Source: a virus. From it: DNA of 26,600 nucleotides. The position numbers were made by a program, and so were the translations under genes. This document shows, in pieces, positions 3,475 through 16,512 of the stretch (the first letter of the stretch is position 1; each line of letters opens with the position of its first letter). The notes below the pieces were generated by a model that had not been told where the DNA came from, made no database searches, and saw only the letters and a program-made list of their open reading frames with translations. The stretch spans positions 1 through 26,600 of the IMG/VR virus record IMGVR_UViG_3300050821_004524. The stretch is one strand, 5' to 3'.

Positions 3475-4971
3475 ATGGGCTATCGGCAAGGCATTCTCGA
3501 ACTCAAGGACGCGATAGTTGGCCTTGAGAAACTTCCAAAGTCCAAGCAATTTGTGACATCCAAGTTCTTTGGCTCCGCCTACGTCGGTGGCGAGGGTTCC
3601 TCTAAGACTGCCTCTCTTTGCTGTGCGGCGATCTGTAATGCTTGGCTAGACCATGGTGGGAAGTCCCTCATTGGCCGTCTTAATATGCCTGCCCTTGAGT
3701 CCACCACCATGAATGACTTCCTTTCGATGGTCCCCGCCGACATGGGAGAGTGGAAAGAACAGCCTAAAACATGGGTTTTCTCTAACGGCCACACGGTCAT
3801 TTTCCGTCACTTGGATATTTCCGATCCCAAAGTCACAGGTCACATCAAATCCGAGAACCTTAGCGCCGCCTACGTCGATGAAGCCTCGGAAGTCGATGAA
3901 AAGGTGTTTTTGCTGCTAGTCGGACGTATGCGCCGGGCTGGTTCGCAGCGGCGGATTCTCCGTCTTTCTTCCAACCCTGCTGGCCACGACTACATGTGGA
4001 AGCACTTTTTCGACCCCAACCGGAAACCAGAGTGGAAACAGCTTTTTGAGGGTATCAGCGCGTCCTCGATGGACAATATTTTCCTTCCCGCCGACACCGT
4101 AAACAGGAACCTGAGTATTTATCCGGCAGATTGGGCCGACCGCTTCATTTATGGGCATTTTTCTGACTTCACCGACCTGGTTTATAAGGAGTTTACAGAA
4201 GAATCCCACGTCTGGGATGACCGACCGGGCCTGGAATATGAGATTTTTAATGGCCGCTCGAATCCGCCGCTGGATTGGCCCGTGATCGTAGGCATGGACA
4301 TCGGCGGCGGTGAGGAAGGCGACCCGTGGGCGCTCACTTTCGATTCCATAGCCCCCGATGGGCGGCTGTATCAGTTTGCCGAGATTTACGGCTCTGAACT
4401 TCGCATCAAGCCGATTGCCGAACAGTTCCATGAAAAAATGGAAGGCCGAACTCTTGACGGCATGGCCTACGATTATGCCCAGCGCGCGGCAGCGATTGAA
4501 CTCGAAGAATACGGGATAGGCGGTCAGTCGGCCATCAAGGATGTTAAACCGGGCCTCTTTAAGACTGCTCAGTACATGCACGTTGACCCCACGCTTTCGC
4601 ACCCGTTTAATTCCAGAATTTCCGGTTCTCCGCGTTCTTTTATGGCCAAATCCTGCATGAACACGATTCGGGAACACGGCAGTTATAAGTGGGCGAAAGA
4701 TAGGTCAGGCAACGCCAAAAACGAACCATCCCACGAAAACAGCCACGGTCCCGACGCCAAGCGCTACGCGATTCATACTTTCCGGCCGCTGCCGGCACAA
4801 ATCACAGAGCCTAAAATCTGGGAAAACAGGAAACTCGACATCGCCAGTCGCCTCTACTGGCAGCGCGCCAAAGAGCACGAAGAGAAGGAACCTTTGCGCC
4901 GCAAAGGATTTAGTACTTTCACTTTAGCCAGAAAAAGAGTAGAACAAAGACGGGAGATACCGCCGCAATGA
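3475..4971 (+). CDS. terL: Terminase large subunit (packaging ATPase/nuclease)
   Basis: This 498-residue protein is the DNA-packaging motor, which cuts concatemeric DNA and drives it through the portal using ATP. The ATPase half carries a Walker A-like loop GGEGSSKT (38-45, K44), Walker B ending in YVDEAS (D135/E136) and a coupling motif SSNPAG (165-170). The RNase H-like nuclease half has candidate metal ligands at D275 (VGMDIGGG), D333 (MAYDYAQR) and D427 (SHGPDAKR). Length and motif order are typical of the family. ATG at 3475 follows the previous stop by two bases, with a GGGGT ribosome site. The stop overlaps the next ATG (ATGA). Confidence in family is very high. Confidence 0.95.
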   Translation: MGYRQGILELKDAIVGLEKLPKSKQFVTSKFFGSAYVGGEGSSKTASLCCAAICNAWLDHGGKSLIGRLNMPALESTTMNDFLSMVPADMGEWKEQPKTWVFSNGHTVIFRHLDISDPKVTGHIKSENLSAAYVDEASEVDEKVFLLLVGRMRRAGSQRRILRLSSNPAGHDYMWKHFFDPNRKPEWKQLFEGISASSMDNIFLPADTVNRNLSIYPADWADRFIYGHFSDFTDLVYKEFTEESHVWDDRPGLEYEIFNGRSNPPLDWPVIVGMDIGGGEEGDPWALTFDSIAPDGRLYQFAEIYGSELRIKPIAEQFHEKMEGRTLDGMAYDYAQRAAAIELEEYGIGGQSAIKDVKPGLFKTAQYMHVDPTLSHPFNSRISGSPRSFMAKSCMNTIREHGSYKWAKDRSGNAKNEPSHENSHGPDAKRYAIHTFRPLPAQITEPKIWENRKLDIASRLYWQRAKEHEEKEPLRRKGFSTFTLARKRVEQRREIPPQ

Positions 4972-5288: not shown

Positions 5289-5935
5289 GCAGAGGAAACC
5301 TCGACATCGAATCTGGCGGCTTCCCTATTTACCCATCGGGCGGCAAGGACGCAGCTAAGGCTATCGCCAAATGGAACGCCCAGCGCCGCGTTGAGAGTAT
5401 GCCAGATTTGAAAGACCCTCCGATTCTGACTCGTTCGCAAGTAATGTTCTCCACCGCTGAATCGGCGCACGATGAGCCTCGCTCCTGCTTCAACTGCCCG
5501 ATGTATTTCGAGAAAGCCGGGCGATGCAAATACTTCGGGCCTCGCACCAAAATCTACAAGTTCACCGAAGGCGAGAAAGACGGAAACCCCATTGAATACT
5601 GGCCCGTTTGCGGCTATTGGTTTTACGGCAAGCCAAGTCAGGACTCCCCGAAATATTTCGAGACGCTTCTCGACCCAGAAGATGCGGGACTTGGATGGGT
5701 CAATGCTCCTAAACCCGGCCTTGAACAATCAGGGACTTGCTGCGGCGGCGGGAATGACGGAGACGATTGCGATTACTGGCGCACGCAAGGCAAAGAAGCT
5801 AAATGGGATGCTGTCGTCGGAACTTGCCGGGTGTTACAATCTGCCACAGCAAACATGGATTGCTGTGCGGTATGGACCGACGATGATTGGATAACTTGGC
5901 AAATTGGGCAGCAATTCCTTAAGGGAAAACCGTGA
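5285..5935 (+). CDS. Ten-cysteine protein, possibly iron-sulfur or zinc binding
   Basis: A 216-residue protein with ten cysteines at 68, 71, 81, 109, 152, 153, 162, 181, 193 and 194. The first four, C-x2-C-x9-C then PVCGYW, resemble the cysteine order of high-potential iron-sulfur proteins (C-x2-C, C, then a C next to aromatic residues), although the last spacing is longer. This is a visual resemblance, not a confirmed match. A TCCGGGNDGDDCDYW segment and a final DCCAVW form a second cysteine-rich half. Starts with GTG overlapping the previous stop; its stop overlaps the next GTG. It could equally be a zinc-stabilised structural protein. Confidence 0.7.
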   Translation: MSRGNLDIESGGFPIYPSGGKDAAKAIAKWNAQRRVESMPDLKDPPILTRSQVMFSTAESAHDEPRSCFNCPMYFEKAGRCKYFGPRTKIYKFTEGEKDGNPIEYWPVCGYWFYGKPSQDSPKYFETLLDPEDAGLGWVNAPKPGLEQSGTCCGGGNDGDDCDYWRTQGKEAKWDAVVGTCRVLQSATANMDCCAVWTDDDWITWQIGQQFLKGKP

Positions 5936-6327
5936 GAATACAGACGCAAGAGCAGAAAGATAAACTGAATGAGTACAAGCGCAACTGGTCGAAGGACAAA
6001 CCGGAATTGCGTTTCATGCGATATTTTCGCCATCGCCTGAAGAGTCGCTATGGCATGACGCCCGAGCAGTTCTATGAACTTGCGAACGCCTTTCACGGGA
6101 AATGTTTTATTTGCCAGCGCGAAATGATTTTACCCGACAAGGTGAAACGCCCTGTTAGGCATGGTCGCTGTGCTGTGGTTGACCACGACCATGCTATCAA
6201 TCAAGTTCGCGGAGTCATTTGCAATAATTGTAATCGCGCCCTTGGATTTCTGAACACATCATCTACCCTGCATCGAGCGATGGTCTATCTAGACACGTTC
6301 AACAAGGTGGCCTATGGCGCAAGCTGA
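5932..6327 (+). CDS. Endonuclease VII / HNH-family nuclease
   Basis: A 131-residue nuclease of the recombination endonuclease VII type (beta-beta-alpha-metal/HNH). Residues 40-50 read YGMTPEQFYEL, as is common in this family. They are followed by a zinc knuckle C58-x2-C61, the active-site string VDHDH (83-87), then RGVICNNCNRALG (93-105) with C97-x2-C100 and an active-site Asn at 101. Family members resolve branched DNA or act as homing nucleases. HNH enzymes near terminase genes are also known to assist end cutting in some phages. GTG start overlaps the previous stop. A basic N-terminal 35 residues precede the domain. Exact role (packaging, recombination or homing) is open. Confidence 0.85.
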   Translation: MRIQTQEQKDKLNEYKRNWSKDKPELRFMRYFRHRLKSRYGMTPEQFYELANAFHGKCFICQREMILPDKVKRPVRHGRCAVVDHDHAINQVRGVICNNCNRALGFLNTSSTLHRAMVYLDTFNKVAYGAS

Positions 6328-7396: not shown

Positions 7397-9763
7397 ATGG
7401 CTGGAACTGTCAGCGGGATAATGCAGAAGGTCACGAGCCTCTTCAAAGGCGGTAGTGATTCCCTCGTCCGCGACAAGCAGGAGAAACAGTCGAAGGAAAG
7501 CATTGTCCCCAGCTATCCGTGGGGCAGTCCCATTGAGGAACGCATCAAATGGATGCTCGACCAGAGATACTGGCAGCTTCAATACGAAAAACTTCAGCTC
7601 CATCGCAAGTGGTTCCGCAATCACCTCTTCTACTGCGGCTACCATGATTCCGTTCTAAGTGACATCGGGTTTTCCTTCGATAGCATCGGAGTGAACAGCG
7701 CGGAGTACGGATTCGCTTCAAACTACTACAGGAGCTACATCCGCTATGGCGCAGCCATGTACGTGCAGACGGCCCCGGAGTTTATTGCTCAACCGACATC
7801 TCCTGATTCAGAGTCTCAGGGAGTCGCAAGCGCTGCTCGGGCCACTCTGGATATTCAGAAGGAGAATATTGGCTACGACGCTATTCGAGCCAGAGAAGCC
7901 ATCAATCTTCGACTTTTTGGAAACTCTTTCCGCTACAACTATTATTCCATCGACCCTCGCTATGGTTTTGTAACCCAGCCGGTCTATGAAGATGTCGAAG
8001 TGCAGATTTCCGAAGGTTCCTGGCAGTGTCCGGTCTGCCAGTTGCAAGGCGAAGGGCAAACCCAAGTCTGTCCCGCTTGCGGCCCTGACGCGCAAGCACC
8101 GCCGATTAACACGCCCCCGCAAACCGCACAAGTCCCACAACTGAAAGGGAAAGTCGCTTATCCCAAGGGCCAGGAGATTTGCGAAGTGGTATGGCCGTTC
8201 GAGGCTTACGTGCGGAGTTCAGTCAAGACGCTGAGAGAAGCACCGGAGTTTCTGCGCGTGCGGATGGTAGATTCCGTAGCCCTCCATTCCAACTTCCCGA
8301 ACGCCCAGTTTGGAGGCATGACGGCAGGCGAAGGGGTGAACGTCAGCGAGGACATTGGGCTTGTTTATCAGCAGGCTATTCCAGATTTGCCGAGCGACCC
8401 GACACAATATCCAGGGTGGTATGAAAGAGCCGTAGCACAGCAGAAAAAGACTTTCATCCAAGGTTGGATTCGGCCTAGCCAGTATTTCTTTGACGATGAA
8501 TTACGGAAGAAATTCCCCGTAGGACTCTATGCCGGGAAAGCCGGTGACTGCTTGTTAGAAACTCGCAATGAGTCGATGGATGACCATTGGACGCATTTCA
8601 AGCATATCCACGTCGAAGGGCGCTTCTGGGGCGACGGCGACGACGATCTTATCCCGCTCCAGATGCAATTTGATGAATGCGACCGGATGCTCATGCGGCA
8701 TGTGGATTACAACACTATGCCGCTGCTCTTGGCAGATACACAGAAAATCGACAAGAACAACATCATCCGCGATGGCGGCTACATGATTGAAGTGAAAAAT
8801 CTTGGTCAGCGGAACATCGACCAGGCGGTGAAATGGCACGCTGGAGGGCAGATTTCCACTGACGTTTGGAACTGGAAGAACACTCGGTTACAGGATATGC
8901 AGTTCCATTCCGGGGTCAGTCCGGCAGCCATCGGCCAGCATGAAACCGGGATTAATACTTTTGGGGGGCAGCAGATTGCCGCCGCGCAGTCTCAAGGGAT
9001 GCTCGCTCCCTTGCAGCTCATGTATAAGGAAGAAAACGAATTGTGGGCCATGCAGATGACCAAGCTGGCTTGCGAGAACTGGCTTGATGACCGCGTGCAA
9101 GCCACGATGGGGAATAATGGCCAGTGGGAGTTCAAGATGTTGCGCGGCGAGATGCTGAAGATGGACGGCATCCGCTGGGTAGCGAGAATTATCCCTCTCG
9201 ACCCGACTAAACAGCAAAACTTGAACCAAGCGATTGCTGTTGGAGCTTTCAACCCGCAGTTGCCTCCACAGGTTCGCCGCAAGGTTTTGGAACTCTACCA
9301 GATGCCGGTGGATTTGGACGAGGACAGCAAAGACGCCAAAGTACAGACCAAAGAGATTCAGCAAGCCACGACTACAGGGCAATGGCCCGAGCCGACGCTG
9401 GGCCGCGACAACGACCAAGCCCATGCGAAAACTTTGCGCGATTGGATGAACTCGGACGATTGGGACAAGCAGCCGCCAGAGGTCAAAGTCGGCGCTCAGG
9501 GCCATCTCTTCAAGCACTTTATGAACATGCAGAAAATGGCGCAGATTATGGGCGCGATTCAGGCTGGAGGACAAGAAGCGGGAGGCCAGCCCCCGGAGCA
9601 AGGAGCACAATCCAGTCCTGAGCAGCGTCAACACGCAGGCCAACAAAAAGGCAATGCCATGAAACCACATCAAAGCCAGCCAACAGCGGGTAATCAGCAT
9701 CACGTAGGTAATGATGTCGGCATGTCGCGTTCAGCACAACAGCGTAGGAGAAACCGCCGATGA
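7397..9763 (+). CDS. Portal protein
   Basis: A 788-residue protein, identified as the portal from its size, its position after the terminase and before scaffold and coat genes, and its podovirus-type sequence. The portal is a twelve-fold ring at one capsid vertex through which DNA is packed and to which the tail joins. Features: a tyrosine/tryptophan-rich N-terminal region (residues 40-120), a four-cysteine zinc-ribbon-like insert (C211-x2-C214 and C225-x2-C228), then acidic and aromatic segments. The last 90 residues are Gln/Gly/His-rich with a basic tip ending in RRRRNRR, probably disordered. ATG directly follows the preceding stop. The final codon overlaps the next ATG. Confidence 0.8.
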   Translation: MAGTVSGIMQKVTSLFKGGSDSLVRDKQEKQSKESIVPSYPWGSPIEERIKWMLDQRYWQLQYEKLQLHRKWFRNHLFYCGYHDSVLSDIGFSFDSIGVNSAEYGFASNYYRSYIRYGAAMYVQTAPEFIAQPTSPDSESQGVASAARATLDIQKENIGYDAIRAREAINLRLFGNSFRYNYYSIDPRYGFVTQPVYEDVEVQISEGSWQCPVCQLQGEGQTQVCPACGPDAQAPPINTPPQTAQVPQLKGKVAYPKGQEICEVVWPFEAYVRSSVKTLREAPEFLRVRMVDSVALHSNFPNAQFGGMTAGEGVNVSEDIGLVYQQAIPDLPSDPTQYPGWYERAVAQQKKTFIQGWIRPSQYFFDDELRKKFPVGLYAGKAGDCLLETRNESMDDHWTHFKHIHVEGRFWGDGDDDLIPLQMQFDECDRMLMRHVDYNTMPLLLADTQKIDKNNIIRDGGYMIEVKNLGQRNIDQAVKWHAGGQISTDVWNWKNTRLQDMQFHSGVSPAAIGQHETGINTFGGQQIAAAQSQGMLAPLQLMYKEENELWAMQMTKLACENWLDDRVQATMGNNGQWEFKMLRGEMLKMDGIRWVARIIPLDPTKQQNLNQAIAVGAFNPQLPPQVRRKVLELYQMPVDLDEDSKDAKVQTKEIQQATTTGQWPEPTLGRDNDQAHAKTLRDWMNSDDWDKQPPEVKVGAQGHLFKHFMNMQKMAQIMGAIQAGGQEAGGQPPEQGAQSSPEQRQHAGQQKGNAMKPHQSQPTAGNQHHVGNDVGMSRSAQQRRRNRR

Positions 9764-10212
9764 TGAATTGGGCTTATATTGCTGGATTTTTCGATGGTGA
9801 AGGCAACATCAATGAGCGCGGTCATGGGGTATTTATTTATCAGAATGACTTGGAATCTCTAAACCAAATAGCCAAATTCCTCGGTGAGCAAGGAATGAGA
9901 CGTTCAAAATTCAGCGTCAAAGAAAGCGGTTTCAGGAAGGACGGCACGAAACGTTGCAACGTGCTCCATTACGGAGCGAAAAGAGAAGTTCTTATTTTCC
10001 TTAATGGCGTGCTGCCATATCTTATCGTTAAGCGTCAGAGGGCGGAAGATTTGAGGCGCTATCTCATACTCTTTCCGCCAATGAGTGCAAAACAAGCCTC
10101 TGTTCTAGGAAATCAGTGTGGCTCCAAACGAATGCGCACTATTTATGGGTATACATCTGTCGATAAACGCGGATGGCCCTTGGGTCAGCGAAGGCATCAT
10201 GGAACGCGATAG
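9760..10212 (+). CDS. LAGLIDADG homing endonuclease (free-standing)
   Basis: A 150-residue protein carrying one LAGLIDADG motif, IAGFFDGEGNI (residues 7-17, catalytic acid E14), plus the downstream LPYLIVKRQRAEDLRRYL helix usual in these enzymes. Single-motif members work as homodimers that cut a long DNA site and copy their gene into it. The gene starts at the last bases of the portal gene (ATGATG), with AGGAG upstream, and is not inside an intron or intein as far as the sequence shows. The portal frame is intact. The extreme C-terminus runs under the start of the next gene. Base composition looks more AT-rich than the portal, fitting recent arrival. Confidence 0.85.
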   Translation: MMNWAYIAGFFDGEGNINERGHGVFIYQNDLESLNQIAKFLGEQGMRRSKFSVKESGFRKDGTKRCNVLHYGAKREVLIFLNGVLPYLIVKRQRAEDLRRYLILFPPMSAKQASVLGNQCGSKRMRTIYGYTSVDKRGWPLGQRRHHGTR

Positions 10213-11224: not shown

Positions 11225-11512
11225 ATGCCCGAACTCCTGCCGAATTGTTTGACGCGCGAAGCTCCTACCGACTGGAACGCTTCTCGCGTTGGCATCGAAC
11301 GTATCCGGCTCTACTGCGCTAATTGTGGGAAATTTGAAAGCTGGGTTAACCGTACCGACCTTTCAAAAGAGTTCGCTTTCTATCTATGCAATCCCTGTGC
11401 GGAAAAGTACGGCGACATCCCAAATCATCTGATGGTTCCCGACGAAGTGTTTTGGAATAATTTGAAACAAGAAACTGAGGAGAAACAAAAATGCCATTTG
11501 TCTATGATTTAG
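11225..11512 (+). CDS. Zinc-ribbon protein
   Basis: Ninety-five residues with a clear four-cysteine ribbon: C31-x2-C34 (YCANCGKFES) and C55-x2-C58 (LCNPCAEKYG). The spacing of 20 residues between the pairs is normal for zinc ribbons. An extra Cys lies at position 8. The C-terminal quarter is charged and helical. It starts 18 bases after the preceding gene, and its end overlaps the next gene by 22 bases. Function unknown; it is another member of the zinc-ribbon set in this module. Confidence 0.7.
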   Translation: MPELLPNCLTREAPTDWNASRVGIERIRLYCANCGKFESWVNRTDLSKEFAFYLCNPCAEKYGDIPNHLMVPDEVFWNNLKQETEEKQKCHLSMI

Positions 11513-11988
11513 CTTTGGCTACGGCTGGCAACTCGACCACCAACGGCACGACCAACACGGAATCAAGCGTGTTCACTTGTGCGACGGCTGCGGCGCTGCC
11601 ATCGAACACCGTCTCACTGTTCATGGTGCAAGTACAGGGCAAGGCAAACGCTTCGACAACCATCTCCGGCATTGCGTTCCGCATCATCAAGTTGACGACC
11701 GCTTCAGCGACGGCTGGCGGAGTAGCAGTTACGCCACGACCTACAAACGTAGGCACTCCCGCCGCTACTAGCGTAGTGTTCTCCGCCGTCACGACGATTG
11801 GCGCAACTGGCCGCACGGCTGGCCCTATTTTTGGTTGTGGCATCGCTGGTCCTGGTGGATGGGTAGCCGCTAACCCCGATGCGATGCAAACAATTCACCC
11901 TCTTGCCACGGCAGGTTCCATCGACCTTGTTTCCTCGACTGCTCCCGTTTCTCAGCCTTTTGAGTGGTCTGCTCAAATCATGGAATAA
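11491..11988 (+). CDS. Small Thr/Ala/Gly-rich virion protein
   Basis: A 165-residue protein of low-charge, beta-prone sequence (MPFVYDLALATAGNSTTNGT at the start, PFEWSAQIME at the end), typical of phage capsid decoration or tail proteins. No family is recognised. ATG at 11491 has a good AGGAG ribosome site within the end of the previous gene. It is followed by three further virion-type genes, so it probably belongs to the particle. Confidence 0.6.
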   Translation: MPFVYDLALATAGNSTTNGTTNTESSVFTCATAAALPSNTVSLFMVQVQGKANASTTISGIAFRIIKLTTASATAGGVAVTPRPTNVGTPAATSVVFSAVTTIGATGRTAGPIFGCGIAGPGGWVAANPDAMQTIHPLATAGSIDLVSSTAPVSQPFEWSAQIME

Positions 11989-12000
11989 TCGGCAGGTGAA

Positions 12001-12750
12001 ATGCCTGCTCCAACGATAACTCAGCATAAAAGCACGTTCGCTATCAATCCGGCCAGCGGCGGAGCTATTACCGCGACTTTCACCTCTTCGGTTACAGCCG
12101 GGAACATGATTCTGGCGCTTGTTGGGGCGGCTCATAACTCAAACAATGCTTCCGCAGTAACTATAAATACGCCAACCATGACAGGTGAGACGTTTACGGC
12201 TTGGGCTAACTCTGCCAATGCTGGTTCTAGCAACAATGGCCAAACAGCGATTTTTGCGGTAAATAGTGCCGCTGGAGGCCAAACCTCCGTCAGTGTGACA
12301 GTGACTTATGCCGGAGGCACATCCGTAGACGTACACCTCCACATTATCGAGGTTCATGGGCAAGCAGGCAGCCCACGCGACATTCAAGGCAATACTGAAT
12401 CCACAACCATGTCGGTGTCCACTTCCGGCACTACAACAACTGCTAACGATCTCATCATCGGATTTTTCTACGACGATATAAACAACATCACTTTTACCCA
12501 CGGCGGAAGTTACGCGCAGGTCGAACAATCCAACAATTCAACTAGCGGTGACGCGGCATTCAGTGAATCCCTATCCGTTTCTAGTACCGGGACGCAAATA
12601 GCGACGGCCACAGGAAATGGGACAGACATCGTAGAACAAAGCATCATTGCCATTGCTGGAACGGGCGCTGGAGGGTTGGTATTTGAGGATGACAGTTTCA
12701 AGGTTCAAACTTCGCAACAATTTGAACCAATAGTGAGTATCTGGGGATGA
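12001..12750 (+). CDS. Beta-sandwich virion protein
   Basis: A 249-residue protein made mostly of Ser, Thr, Ala, Gly, Asn and Val in alternating strands (SGGAITATFTSSVTAGNMIL; TSVSVTVTYAGGTSVDVHLH), as in jelly-roll or Ig-like surface proteins. The last 25 residues (FEDDSFKVQTSQQFEPIVS) are more acidic and aromatic. AGGTG precedes the ATG. The stop overlaps the next ATG (ATGATT). No specific family is recognised; a capsid surface or tail accessory protein is most likely. Confidence 0.6.
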   Translation: MPAPTITQHKSTFAINPASGGAITATFTSSVTAGNMILALVGAAHNSNNASAVTINTPTMTGETFTAWANSANAGSSNNGQTAIFAVNSAAGGQTSVSVTVTYAGGTSVDVHLHIIEVHGQAGSPRDIQGNTESTTMSVSTSGTTTTANDLIIGFFYDDINNITFTHGGSYAQVEQSNNSTSGDAAFSESLSVSSTGTQIATATGNGTDIVEQSIIAIAGTGAGGLVFEDDSFKVQTSQQFEPIVSIWG

Positions 12751-13157
12751 TTCTCTATCGGCATCCCAGCGATGAAGAGAACTACCCATTAGCTCCGTTT
12801 GGGCCAAATTCAGATAGTTTTACGCTTGTCGATGCCAATGGGAATAGATGGGATGTGGGAGTGCAGAATACCGGGCTCCTGCAAACCGCGCCTTCAACAA
12901 GAGCCTCGGTAACGGTTATTCTGAACTCTCAGGACAATCTGACTTCATGGCTTCTTGGCGTGACAACCAGCGGCCTGCTCACCACCACAGCCATTTCTTT
13001 CCTGGCAGGTTCTCCGACGCTTCGTTGGATGGGCAGCGTTACCGGAGCAAGTGTTTGGGGCTTGGGAGTACTGGACAAAGGCCAGCTTTTTACGGAGCAG
13101 TCGCCTGCGATATTCGAGGAAACGAGCGTAAGTTTCCTCAGTTTGAAGGCGTGGTAA
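12747..13157 (+). CDS. Virion protein with a domain shared with the nozzle-like protein
   Basis: A 136-residue protein. Residues about 25-112 match a segment near residues 766-860 of the 951-residue protein encoded at 20441-23296. Shared marks are a NxWDV string, SWxLGV, GLLT and SVTGxSVWxxG. The two genes even share near-identical DNA around AGCGTTACCGGA. This points to a mobile beta domain reused within one genome, probably in surface or tail attachment. The N-terminus (RHPSDEENYPLAPFGP) faintly recalls the repeats in the next gene. ATG overlaps the previous stop. Confidence 0.65.
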   Translation: MILYRHPSDEENYPLAPFGPNSDSFTLVDANGNRWDVGVQNTGLLQTAPSTRASVTVILNSQDNLTSWLLGVTTSGLLTTTAISFLAGSPTLRWMGSVTGASVWGLGVLDKGQLFTEQSPAIFEETSVSFLSLKAW

Positions 13158-14261
13158 ATGGCTCTGCTTGAAGATGATGCTTGGTTTGGCGGAGTACAGA
13201 AGTGTTTCGTCAGCATAGCTCTGGCCAACATCGTTTGGATTGTCCCGCAGTACCAGAGTCATTCAACAGCCATACAAGCTCCATTTGCCTATGAGGAGTA
13301 CTGGCAGAATCCAGTACCTCCAGTCCCGCTAAGTCTGACCTATCCACAGCCTTGGATATTTGACGAACAAACCCCAGCTCTCTTTCCGCAGCCCGACGAA
13401 GATTTCTGGAACAATCCCGTTCCGCCAGTTCCGCTTACTTTCCAGTGGCCGCAACAGTGGACGTTTGACGAACAAACTCCAGTACTTTATGCGCCCGCAA
13501 ACGAGGAGTATTGGCAAAACCCTGTCTCACCTGTCCCTGGCTCGCTTACCTATCCGCAGCAATGGATTTATGACGAGCAAATACCGGCTCTCTTCAGCGG
13601 GATGGAGGAGTACTACTGGCAGAACCCTGTCGCGCCGGTTTCAAGCTATCCCGTTCCCTTCGTATTCACGGATGATTTCTCTCTCGTCCCGCAGCCAGGA
13701 GCCTTTGAGCCCGATGAGGACTTCTGGCTAAATCCAGTCGCTCCAGCCCCTCTCACCTTCACCCTTGTCAGCCCTTGGCAGGACGAACAGACCCCCTTGC
13801 TTTTCCCGCAACCCGATGAGGACTTTTGGGTTAGCGGAGTCGCGCCCGTTCCATTAACGCTTGCGCCGCTTTATCTGCCCGACCCCGAGCAGTATCCATT
13901 GCTCCTTGGCCAGCCGGACGAAGATTTTTGGGTGAGCGGCGTAGCTCCGCAACTCTGGCCTGCCTGGACGCTTCCATTTACCTACGATGAAGTCATTGTC
14001 CCGCAGCCTATAGCGTTTCAACCGGATGAGGATTTTTGGGTCAACCCGGTAACTCCAACGGCATTTGCTTTTGCTCCATTCCAGCCGTGGCAGGATGAGC
14101 AAACACCAACCTTGTTCGGTCAGCCGGACGAGGACTTCTGGATTAATCCCGTACCTCCGATCATGGCTTACCCTGTTCCATTAGTGTTTATGGATGACGG
14201 CAACTTCGTGCGGCAAGTGATAACCGGGCAGATTATCTGGCTGCAAGGTGGGCCAGTTTGA
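13158..14261 (+). CDS. Nine-repeat Trp/Asp/Pro-rich virion protein
   Basis: A 367-residue protein built from nine tandem repeats of 34-36 residues. Each is centred on DEDFWxNPVxPxPLTF followed by a short PWxxDEQTPxLFxQP segment. The nine marker tryptophan codons lie at 13302, 13407, 13512, 13617, 13725, 13827, 13929, 14037 and 14139. The protein is acidic, aromatic and proline-rich, with an unusually regular build. It could be an extended fibre or a surface appendage (inference). The first 45 residues and last 25 (ending IIWLQGGPV) are unique. ATG follows the previous stop directly. No known family is recognised. Confidence 0.75.
   Translation: MALLEDDAWFGGVQKCFVSIALANIVWIVPQYQSHSTAIQAPFAYEEYWQNPVPPVPLSLTYPQPWIFDEQTPALFPQPDEDFWNNPVPPVPLTFQWPQQWTFDEQTPVLYAPANEEYWQNPVSPVPGSLTYPQQWIYDEQIPALFSGMEEYYWQNPVAPVSSYPVPFVFTDDFSLVPQPGAFEPDEDFWLNPVAPAPLTFTLVSPWQDEQTPLLFPQPDEDFWVSGVAPVPLTLAPLYLPDPEQYPLLLGQPDEDFWVSGVAPQLWPAWTLPFTYDEVIVPQPIAFQPDEDFWVNPVTPTAFAFAPFQPWQDEQTPTLFGQPDEDFWINPVPPIMAYPVPLVFMDDGNFVRQVITGQIIWLQGGPV
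13302..14141 (+). repeat. Nine in-frame tandem coding repeats
   Basis: Spacing between the marker TGG codons is 105, 105, 105, 108, 102, 102, 108 and 102 bases, always a multiple of three. The sixth and seventh repeats read WVSGV where the others read WxNPV. Purifying selection on the frame and slippage or recombination between units are both implied. Confidence 0.85.
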
Positions 14262-14305: not shown

Positions 14306-15196
14306 GTGGACAAGATTACCTTCGAGGAGCTTGAGAGCACTGCAACTCAGCAGACCACCGTTAAAGCTGCTGAAACGACAGCGACCGAAACCAAGGCGGC
14401 TGAAACTGCCGCAGTGGTGGAAACCAAGCCCCAATTCACAGACACGGATGTAGAGGCGTACAAGCAGTTGGTCGATATGGGGATTACTCCCCAGAATGCG
14501 TCGGAGTTCAAGGCCGCGAAGCAAGCCCTTGAAAACCTCCCGATGCTTCTCAAGAACAATCCCGATTTGCTTTTGGATGAAATTGAGAAGAATGACCCCG
14601 AGCTGCATAAAATGCTGCTCGAAAAGGTCAGCGACCGCTGGTTCAATCGCCTCCCGTCCGATGTGCGTGAGGGAAAATCTAACGGCAATGGCAGTGAGAG
14701 CAGGACTGTCAGTTCGGCTACCAACCCCATGATTGAAAAGCTCCAGCGGCAAGTCGATTCTCTCGTTCAAGAACGCACGCAGGAAAGAACGGACGCACAG
14801 CAAAAGACCATCTTGAGTGGACTCAACACCACTTTTGAGAACTTGATTGCTAAGCTCCCGGCGAGCGTTACGGACAAGGACAAAGACTACATTCGCCTCA
14901 AGGCAGAACGCTTGCTTTGGTCGGATGGCAATGCCGCGAAGAGAATCAATTCGGGCGTGTACGTGGATGTGCCGACCTATTTCTCGAAGGCTGCGAGCCT
15001 CGTTACTGCTGAAACCAAAGCTGCTACAACCGCCGAGCACGCCGCACGCGCTGGAGTCGAAGCGCGAGGCGTAAAAGAGATTCCCGCCGCTGCCGAGAAC
15101 GTCAACGGCAGCGCTTCCTCAAAGCAAGAAGGTCATGGACATGACCCGATTTGGGGAAACATCTCTCCCGAGGAACTGAAGTCGGCCTACAAGTAG
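14306..15196 (+). CDS. Scaffold-like protein
   Basis: A 296-residue, acidic, Ala/Lys/Glu-rich protein with no globular core visible, located directly before the coat gene, the classic place of the scaffolding protein. Residues 1-45 are Thr/Ala/Glu-rich and disordered-looking. Residues 50-115 are helical (LVDMGITPQNASEFKAAKQA). A coiled-coil-like stretch runs over about 140-175 (MIEKLQRQVDSLVQERTQER). The tail ends in WGNISPEELKSAYK, a short helix that could bind the coat subunit. GTG start with AAGGTGG four bases earlier. Scaffolds direct shell assembly and then leave. Assignment is from position and composition. Confidence 0.7.
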   Translation: MDKITFEELESTATQQTTVKAAETTATETKAAETAAVVETKPQFTDTDVEAYKQLVDMGITPQNASEFKAAKQALENLPMLLKNNPDLLLDEIEKNDPELHKMLLEKVSDRWFNRLPSDVREGKSNGNGSESRTVSSATNPMIEKLQRQVDSLVQERTQERTDAQQKTILSGLNTTFENLIAKLPASVTDKDKDYIRLKAERLLWSDGNAAKRINSGVYVDVPTYFSKAASLVTAETKAATTAEHAARAGVEARGVKEIPAAAENVNGSASSKQEGHGHDPIWGNISPEELKSAYK

Positions 15197-15219: not shown

Positions 15220-16512
15220 TTGGCGCAATTCGATTTATCCGCCGCAGACCCTATTTTCAAAGTAGTTTTCAATCCCAGAATTGAGAAACAGTTCAATACA
15301 GCCGCCGTGCTCTGGAACGATGTTTTCGAGGGCTCAGGAACCATGATTAGCAACCGCGGCCTTGAAATCCCTGTCCACATGGCAGGGAACGGTCAGCACG
15401 CATGGTACGGCGATGGTGGAGCGCTACCGGCTGGCGACTCGCAGCGCGTCAACCGCGCTATCGTGGGTTTCTATAGCTACGTCAAGCCCATTCAGTTTAC
15501 CGGCGCAGCTTTGGATGCAGGCGGGGGCGGAGACGCTACGAACTATGTGAAGTCTCTGGCCTTCAACGTCCGCAATGGTGTCGTGGATGCCATCAAGGAA
15601 CTGAACTGGTATTCCTTCCTCGATGGTTCGGCCACGCTTGCCAAGGTGGGGGGCTCCGTAACGCTCTCAACGACCGTAAACACAACGGTAGACGTAACAG
15701 GATTGGGTGACGGCGCGCGGTATTTGCGTCCCGGCCTGACAGTGGACTTCCTGACTGGCACGGTCAACACCGTGAAGGGCACGGCAACCATCGTTTCCGT
15801 ATCGAACCTCTTAGGCGTGGCTGGCACCACGAACCTGACTTCGGCAGGCGGCGCAGTAACTATCGTGGTTGGTCCGGCGTCGGCGGCTGGGTCACTTGTC
15901 TCTGGCGATGCCATCATCTCCTCTGGTTCCTTCAATAAGGCGATGGCTGGCCTGAAAGTCATCATCGACAACGGTACGTTCGCGGCCAACTTCCAGAACA
16001 TCAATCGGGCGAACAATCCTCAGTACAACGCCAACGTGATTTCGCTTTCCGGCACTCCAGCCCTTACCCGTGATTTCCTTCGCAGGGGCATCTGGACGAT
16101 TCAGCAAGTGCGCGGGGCGGTGGACCTATCGAAGCTCCGCATCTGGAGCCATGGCTCACAACTTCATGCCTACGTGGACATGGGCTGGACCATCAAGCAA
16201 TTCAACGGCAACGCCATGAAGATGGACCTTGGCTTTACAGCCTACGAGTTTGAAGGCATCCCTTGGGTCATCGACACGGACGCTCCGCGCGACACGCTGT
16301 ACTTCGTGAACAAGGAATCCTTGCTCAAGGTGACAGCGCGGAAATTGAGCTTTGACGACCGCACAGGCTCGATTCTCAACCGCGTGCCCACGACCACGGG
16401 CGGCTACAACGATGCGTTTGTGGCGTATCTTGAGTTCCGTGGGAATTTGGGTGCCTACATGCCGAACGCAAACACAGCAGTCACGGGCTTGAGCATCCCA
16501 GCCGGATACTAA
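15220..16512 (+). CDS. Major capsid (coat) protein
   Basis: A 430-residue protein placed just after the scaffold gene, with the size and composition of a phage coat protein. The N-terminal 130 residues (IEKQFNTAAVLWNDVFEG; VKPIQFTGAALDAGGGG; ELNWYSFLDGSATLAKVGG) resemble coat proteins of the HK97-fold group. A central beta-rich insert (about 145-240) contains PGLTVDFLTGTVNTVKGTAT and AGSLVSGDAIISS. The end is LRIWSHGSQLHAY through YNDAFVAYLEFRGNLGAYMP. Start is TTG at 15220, unusual for an abundant protein; an ATG upstream in this frame is not seen. The fold is inferred from sequence character, not a search. Confidence 0.8.
   Translation: MAQFDLSAADPIFKVVFNPRIEKQFNTAAVLWNDVFEGSGTMISNRGLEIPVHMAGNGQHAWYGDGGALPAGDSQRVNRAIVGFYSYVKPIQFTGAALDAGGGGDATNYVKSLAFNVRNGVVDAIKELNWYSFLDGSATLAKVGGSVTLSTTVNTTVDVTGLGDGARYLRPGLTVDFLTGTVNTVKGTATIVSVSNLLGVAGTTNLTSAGGAVTIVVGPASAAGSLVSGDAIISSGSFNKAMAGLKVIIDNGTFAANFQNINRANNPQYNANVISLSGTPALTRDFLRRGIWTIQQVRGAVDLSKLRIWSHGSQLHAYVDMGWTIKQFNGNAMKMDLGFTAYEFEGIPWVIDTDAPRDTLYFVNKESLLKVTARKLSFDDRTGSILNRVPTTTGGYNDAFVAYLEFRGNLGAYMPNANTAVTGLSIPAGY

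Follow-up and report, generated by a model that had tools for sequence, protein, structure and literature searches.

The window, by which we mean the whole stretch of 26,600 nucleotides that was analyzed, covers 26.6 kb of an uncultured tailed phage (IMG/VR record IMGVR_UViG_3300050821_004524). A preliminary description had placed a tandem repeat protein among its virion genes, and this placement was borne out by PHROG matches to terminase, capsid, and tail-fibre-like proteins around the open reading frame and on the same strand (Table 1). The repeat gene sits within a same-strand run, with the portal-position gene on one side and the scaffold-position and capsid genes on the other. The portal-position gene, which had no PHROG match, encodes a zinc-ribbon-like insertion at residues 205–229 (weak match to Pfam Zn_ribbon_RanBP, E 8.8e-4). 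LAGLIDADG-like (9760–10212) and HNH-like (5932–6327) endonuclease genes were recognized by eye in the structural region. Other viral contigs are cited below by L numbers.

Table 1. Features of the window, and tail-bearing genes of related contigs (positions in each contig's own numbering).
Feature	Position	Strand	Basis
Terminase large subunit	3475..4971	+	phrog_2, E 3.7e-31; Pfam Terminase_3
Portal-position gene	7397..9763		Position
Zn-ribbon partner, four invariant Cys, first module gene	11225..11512	+	Alignment; upstream of repeat gene in most contigs covering the region
Conserved beta protein, core GCGxAGPGGWVAxNPD	11491..11988	+	Alignment; 42 viral loci; upstream of repeat gene
Adhesin-like double beta-sandwich protein	12001..12750	+	AlphaFold pTM 0.75; fold matches; alignment
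C-terminal tail of adhesin-like protein, FEDDSFKVQTSQQFEPIVSIWG	12682..12750	+	C-terminus survey; unstructured in model
136-aa protein, domain also in tail-fibre-like protein	12747..13157	+	BLASTP
Acidic repeat protein gene	13158..14261	+	ORF, translation, profile match, relatives
N-terminal anchor, DDAWFGGVQKC + hydrophobic helix (residues 6–33)	13173..13256	+	AlphaFold helix; motif in relatives
Repeat unit 1	13293..13394	+	Unit profile
Repeat unit 2	13395..13496	+	Unit profile
Repeat unit 3	13503..13604	+	Unit profile
Repeat unit 4, divergent	13605..13706	+	Unit profile
Repeat unit 5	13713..13814	+	Unit profile
Repeat unit 6	13815..13916	+	Unit profile
Repeat unit 7	13917..14024	+	Unit profile
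Repeat unit 8	14025..14126	+	Unit profile
Repeat unit 9, shortened	14127..14216	+	Unit profile
Scaffold-position gene	14306..15196		Position, between repeat gene and capsid gene
Major capsid protein	15220..16512	+	phrog_14242, E 7.4e-31
Tail-fibre-like protein, 951 aa	20441..23296	+	phrog_1980, E 3.9e-6
Tail-bearing gene, L006	4872-5600		
Tail-bearing gene, L007	3605-4519		
Tail-bearing genes, L012	3137-3829, 3833-4231		
Tail-bearing gene, L014	6713-7453		
Tail-bearing gene, L019	3398-4138		
Tail-bearing gene, L028	70-870		

The repeat gene has its ATG at 13158 and its stop codon ending at 14261, exactly as first described, and encodes 367 aa. The full unit profile delimited nine units in residues 46–353. 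An independent profile, trained on other viruses and without any unit of the window, recovered nine domains in residues 46–348 with a start-to-start spacing of 34–36 residues; together they scored 224.9 bits, compared to −0.4 for the best of 1000 composition-preserving shuffles. The nine-unit repeat of the preliminary description was therefore confirmed. That description had called the periodicity nearly perfect, which holds for the period of 34–36 residues and not for the letters, as the exact motif DEDFWxNPVxP occurs in units 2, 5, 8, and 9 and DEQTPxLF in units 1, 5, and 8, with variants in the remaining units. At the DNA level, a repeat finder returned a weak family (D1, seven copies, 63–78% identity) and TRF found no array of unit length in the window, so the array is a repeat at the protein level. 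A possible two-fold symmetry inside the unit (PVPASLY vs. EIPAGSLY) was rejected, as the best run of 4.47 fell below the 95% permutation limit of 5.57. The protein is strongly acidic and aromatic, as first described, with 16.9% Pro, 17.2% Phe+Trp+Tyr, 12.5% Asp+Glu, and 0.5% Lys+Arg; it has two basic residues in all, one Cys, a pI of 4.05, and a charge of about −44.

Structure prediction had been proposed earlier as a check. Helix 6–33 was the sole confident part of the AlphaFold single-chain model (pLDDT ~82–84 over residues 11–30), whereas the repeats were returned without secondary structure at pLDDT ~45, a value at which real disorder and a failure due to a shallow alignment are inseparable, so the model yields no length per repeat. 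Charge–hydropathy placed the protein at the border between folded and unfolded chains (H 0.467 vs. 0.462). The repeats may be disordered, or their folding may depend on an oligomer or a partner.

The helix belongs to an N-terminal anchor that nearly all members share, composed of an acidic stretch, WWxGxQxC, and a 17–20-residue Ala-rich hydrophobic helix, followed by the array. The anchor of the window carries this architecture as EDDAWFGG + VQKCFVSIALANIVWIV, in which WF replaces WW. In nearly every member the helix after the WW motif is the most hydrophobic segment, with a mean Kyte–Doolittle value of ~1.5–2.3 over 19 residues, which is borderline for a transmembrane segment, and with mainly acidic flanks. 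The anchor is retained at about residue 210–240, behind a fused beta-type domain, in L023, L024, and L025, and it is present in L059, L064, and L070 although their repeats have drifted past detection by the profile. In one further contig (L005, 2–1639), the WWxGxQKC segment occurs twice and the second copy merges into the repeat pattern, which suggests that the anchor is a modified unit.

Relatives were gathered by a DNA pattern for the motif, which had many matches in IMG/VR, and by a search with the partner beta protein. We defined a DEDFW acidic-repeat family by three marks: at least two units of 34–38 residues with [DE][DE]D[FY]W, a proline-rich middle, and D-x-E-x-P; the N-terminal anchor described above; and genes for a Zn ribbon and a GPGGWVAPNPD beta protein upstream in the same orientation. 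The window protein has all three, its nine units being those detected by the independent profile. More than 20 distinct uncultured-virus contigs in IMG/VR carried profile-confirmed arrays of ~3 to 38 units in proteins of ~340 to >1400 aa. The median period was 34–37 residues in most members, with an approximate consensus unit of PDEDFWQNPVAPVxATLYxxLPLxDPEEIPAGSLxGQ. Members commonly consist of WWxGxQxC plus the hydrophobic helix, the unit array, and an optional extra domain. L054, L059, and L064 retained the acidic, aromatic, and proline spacing despite a drifted unit consensus. L026 and L030 were rejected as chance pattern matches with no match to the unit profile. Repeat number, which the preliminary description had suggested could vary between relatives, differs widely from lineage to lineage. 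The closest related group (L006, L014, and L019; 481–495 aa, 56–60% identity) aligned nearly over its full length, which indicates that repeat number is not fast-changing in every lineage.

The family had been described as unknown, and the repeat protein indeed matched nothing in Pfam, PHROGs (0 families), NCBIfam, or PDB (by sequence and by profile). tblastn with the window protein and its relative from L012 gave no match in 50,697 deposited phages, and the DNA motif pattern matched none of 84,980 genomes of bacteria and archaea. A tblastn match to an AIDA-I-annotated plasmid gene (24.8% identity, E 1e-3) was dismissed as repeat and composition noise. Literature searches on the motif and on disordered phage repeats returned nothing relevant. 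Judged by these searches, the family is previously uncatalogued and seen only in uncultured phages.

Among the units of the window, pooled pS was 0.85, with synonymous sites near saturation, and pN was 0.39; the array is consequently old and kept by selection. The highest DNA identity of any pair of window units was 69%. The reading frame was also conserved in the relatives; the preliminary description had listed a frame that is not conserved among its refuting conditions. In L003, L007, L015, L020, and L025, some units were 92–100% identical in DNA, indicating recent duplication. A second record from another metagenome, L013 (IMGVR_UViG_3300020579_000092), was 100% identical to the window over a stretch of 14,874 bases that contains the array. 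The copy number was thus assembled alike in two records, which speaks against an assembly error, though the two records may come from one site despite their separate metagenomes. L002 and L013 were consequently rejected as relatives, since they represent a contig that overlaps the window and belongs to the virus of the window itself. L013 also reaches upstream of the start of the window, so the genome of this virus is longer than the window. L015 and L020 are the two ends of a single contig of 118,881 bases, which starts and ends inside a repeat array, with 38 unit matches altogether, and these ends resemble an assembly break or a circular join within near-identical units.

Partner genes upstream of the array were conserved as well. 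In the window, two of them share the strand of the repeat gene, with the Zn-ribbon gene 1649 nt and the beta protein gene (here GPGGWVAPNPD) 1173 nt before it. In all 14 motif-found contigs with enough readable sequence upstream, window included, the beta protein is encoded 30–4112 nt ahead of the repeat gene and in its orientation, and the Zn-ribbon gene usually comes directly before the beta protein gene; L029 showed the same order. The contigs of L012, L014, L016, L018, and L021, which have no beta protein, end before or near that point, and an incomplete copy (L028) lacks the gene that its fuller locus (L040) has. The order of the module is thus Zn ribbon, beta protein, interchangeable adhesin or glycosidase genes, and repeat gene. 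When bacterial and archaeal genomes were scanned for the beta protein, the single match was a 4.2-kb contig filed under a Proteobacteria MAG; it had no repeat gene and does not suffice for naming a host.

Interchangeable genes of several kinds lie between the beta protein gene and the repeat gene. In the window, the adhesin-like protein has a fold resembling phage minor tail proteins (Mycobacterium phages Gaia, Shauna1, and Tweety), and the 136-aa protein shares a domain of ~100 aa with the tail-fibre-like protein, located towards the C-terminus of the latter (BLASTP, 43% over 103 aa, E 3e-17). Elsewhere, glycosidase domains lie near the repeat gene (Apiosidase, E 1.2e-31 and 5.8e-45; Glyco_hydro_16, E 5.6e-7), with Apiosidase- or GH16-type domains in L059 8481–9857, L064 812–2113, and L019 773–3394, and there was one weak match to a beta-helix-like protein. 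Other domains are fused directly to the array. L003 joins it to a kelch propeller; L020, L023, L024, L025, and L072 carry N-terminal beta-type domains; and L006, L014, L019, and L021 carry a conserved C-terminal Zn-ribbon-like segment (CRICNSGKPLVVRxDYAIWCQDCCAF) after the repeats. Domains comparable to the adhesin-like protein are among the N-terminal fusions; the window adhesin had no significant BLASTP match to the fusion protein of L023, so this kinship is drawn from alignment and architecture. Large proteins with Sec signals were encoded in L006 (1813–4869), L014 (7457–12178), L019 (773–3394), L023 (3355–6893), L038 (133–3293), and L041 (8490–10327). Classical Sec signal peptides inside a phage structural cluster are unusual for virion proteins. 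The conserved anchor and these partner genes are more telling than the features first noted. The preliminary description was right about the repeats and their setting; that the protein is part of the virion and of a surface structure, and that repeat number sets a length, we infer.

A survey of C-termini found a recurrent tail of the approximate form [FV][ED][ED]D...EPxISVW (FEDDSx...EPxISVW), with Trp final or penultimate, on unrelated module proteins. In the window, L006, L007, L012 (two), L014, L019, and L028, the proteins that carry it are encoded immediately before the repeat gene, and further tails occur in L035, L060, L061, and L064. The unit profile convincingly matched one of 12 tails. 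The outline of the tail recalls a shortened unit, and if this likeness is real, units and tails would both be docking peptides, a weaker lead than the tether proposed below.

The capsid families beside the module differ between viruses: phrog_14242/9953 in the window and L022, 1357 in L006 and L017, 752 in L003, 10 in L012, and 4523/133 in L025. In L012, a head maturation protease follows directly downstream of the repeat gene. Placed among head and packaging genes with at least five families of capsid protein, the module behaves as exchangeable, and its genes have probably passed together from one phage lineage to another.

We propose, at about even confidence, that the repeat protein serves as the stalk or tether in an adsorption module of the virion, a module that is exchangeable. 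The acidic WWxGxQxC segment and the hydrophobic helix would lock the protein into the particle, with a docking site probably at the head or neck, judging by gene position. The acidic units of 34–38 residues, rich in proline and aromatics, would form an extended stalk, flexible or dependent on assembly, that holds the receptor-binding and sugar-active domains of neighboring genes or spaces them from the shell; in some viruses those domains would be fused to the stalk itself. Added units would lengthen the reach or add binding sites. This tether is supported by the array fusions, the minor-tail-like fold of a partner, and the domain held in common with the tail-fibre-like protein. It is likewise supported by the nine units found with the independent profile and the ~3–38-unit range, by the retained anchor helix, the beta protein in all readable contigs, and the glycosidase partners, and by the location of the module next to head genes whose capsid families differ. 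Against it stand the pLDDT of ~45 for the repeat model and the borderline charge–hydropathy. In addition, the window repeat protein lacks a binding domain of its own, its hydrophobic helix might just as well anchor it in a membrane, and the Sec signal peptides of the modules in L006, L014, L019, L023, and others fit export of those partners rather than virion assembly.

These last points lead to the alternative of a membrane protein of the infected cell, with the helix in the inner membrane and the repeats spanning the periplasm or coating the cell as a TonB-like spacer, for example in superinfection exclusion or in the display of exported enzymes. The borderline hydrophobicity of the helix and the typical Sec signals among neighbors in six contigs (L006, L014, L019, L023, L038, and L041) suit such a protein, which we consider unlikely given that the Ala/Thr/Ser-rich helix lacks strong basic flanks, lies behind a beta domain of ~200 aa in L020, L023, L024, L025, and L072, and is encoded inside the head cluster. 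Arrays of 20–38 units, if extended, would also greatly overshoot the periplasm. Also unlikely is a multivalent docking scaffold, in which every unit would act as a short linear motif that binds a module or capsid protein, the single-copy proteins having one such C-terminal tail and the repeat protein many. The recurrence of one tail form on different proteins encoded directly before the repeat gene, the unstructured tail in the model of the window partner, and the spacing kept in the drifted L054, L059, and L064 point toward it, and the single convincing tail and the putative status of the acceptor point away. A broader version, by analogy with the cellulosome, we regard as quite unlikely. Here an exchangeable adsorption cassette of Zn ribbon, GPGGW beta protein, interchangeable adhesin or glycosidase, and acidic repeat scaffold would be plugged into the head cluster of unrelated phages, with the repeat protein as the multivalent scaffold whose units, together with matching C-terminal tails on the adhesins and enzymes, would dock the components to one another on the virus particle; if true, such a cassette is so far undescribed in uncultured phages.

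Gene order also bears on an internal head or assembly protein, for instance an acidic scaffold-like or DNA-mimic protein between portal and capsid. The repeat gene directly precedes the scaffold-position and capsid genes in the window and the maturation protease in L012, and the protein has almost no basic residues. The kelch and beta-type fusions and the grouping with glycosidases speak against this role, and the spread from ~340 to >1400 aa would be odd for a packed internal protein, leaving it very unlikely. Ordinary low-complexity drift, with repeats of no specific role, is disfavored and in our estimate highly improbable: the near-identical units of five contigs are what replication slippage gives, but the window units are old and under protein-level selection, and the consensus and partners recur across unrelated viruses.

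The protein represents a new family, its gene module is new as well, and its role is plausibly of a known kind. If the tether proposal is true, a group of uncultured phages has a common, swappable surface module that is independent of capsid type, and one repeat protein determines how far adhesins and sugar-cleaving enzymes reach, or their valency. With the unit profile, anchor motif, and partner genes as a handle, many phage genes that now lack annotation could be named, and repeat number could be related to host adsorption.

Several known systems can be compared. Capsid decoration proteins and head fibres such as Dec of phage L are accessory head proteins of tailed phages (PMC6449081). The repeat protein would resemble them by gene position only and matched no PHROG family. 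The likeness to actinobacteriophage minor tail proteins, with their double beta-sandwich, concerns the fold of the adhesin-like partner and not the repeat protein; the minor tail names are annotations, and a PDB fold search with the partner gave no convincing solved structure. The TonB linker, which follows a hydrophobic N-terminal anchor, and the PEVK region of titin are spacers that, like the repeat protein, are rich in Pro and Glu/Asp and probably extended. The repeat protein differs from both in being 17% aromatic with a near-invariant Trp, and no sequence relationship was found. Viral fibre shafts with short tandem repeats include the triple beta-spiral of the adenovirus fibre and the collagen-like fibres of phages. 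The repeat protein differs from these in its period of 34–38, in its residues, and in having no PDB sequence or profile match, and resembles them in its short tandem units, their variable number, and the stalk-like role proposed here.
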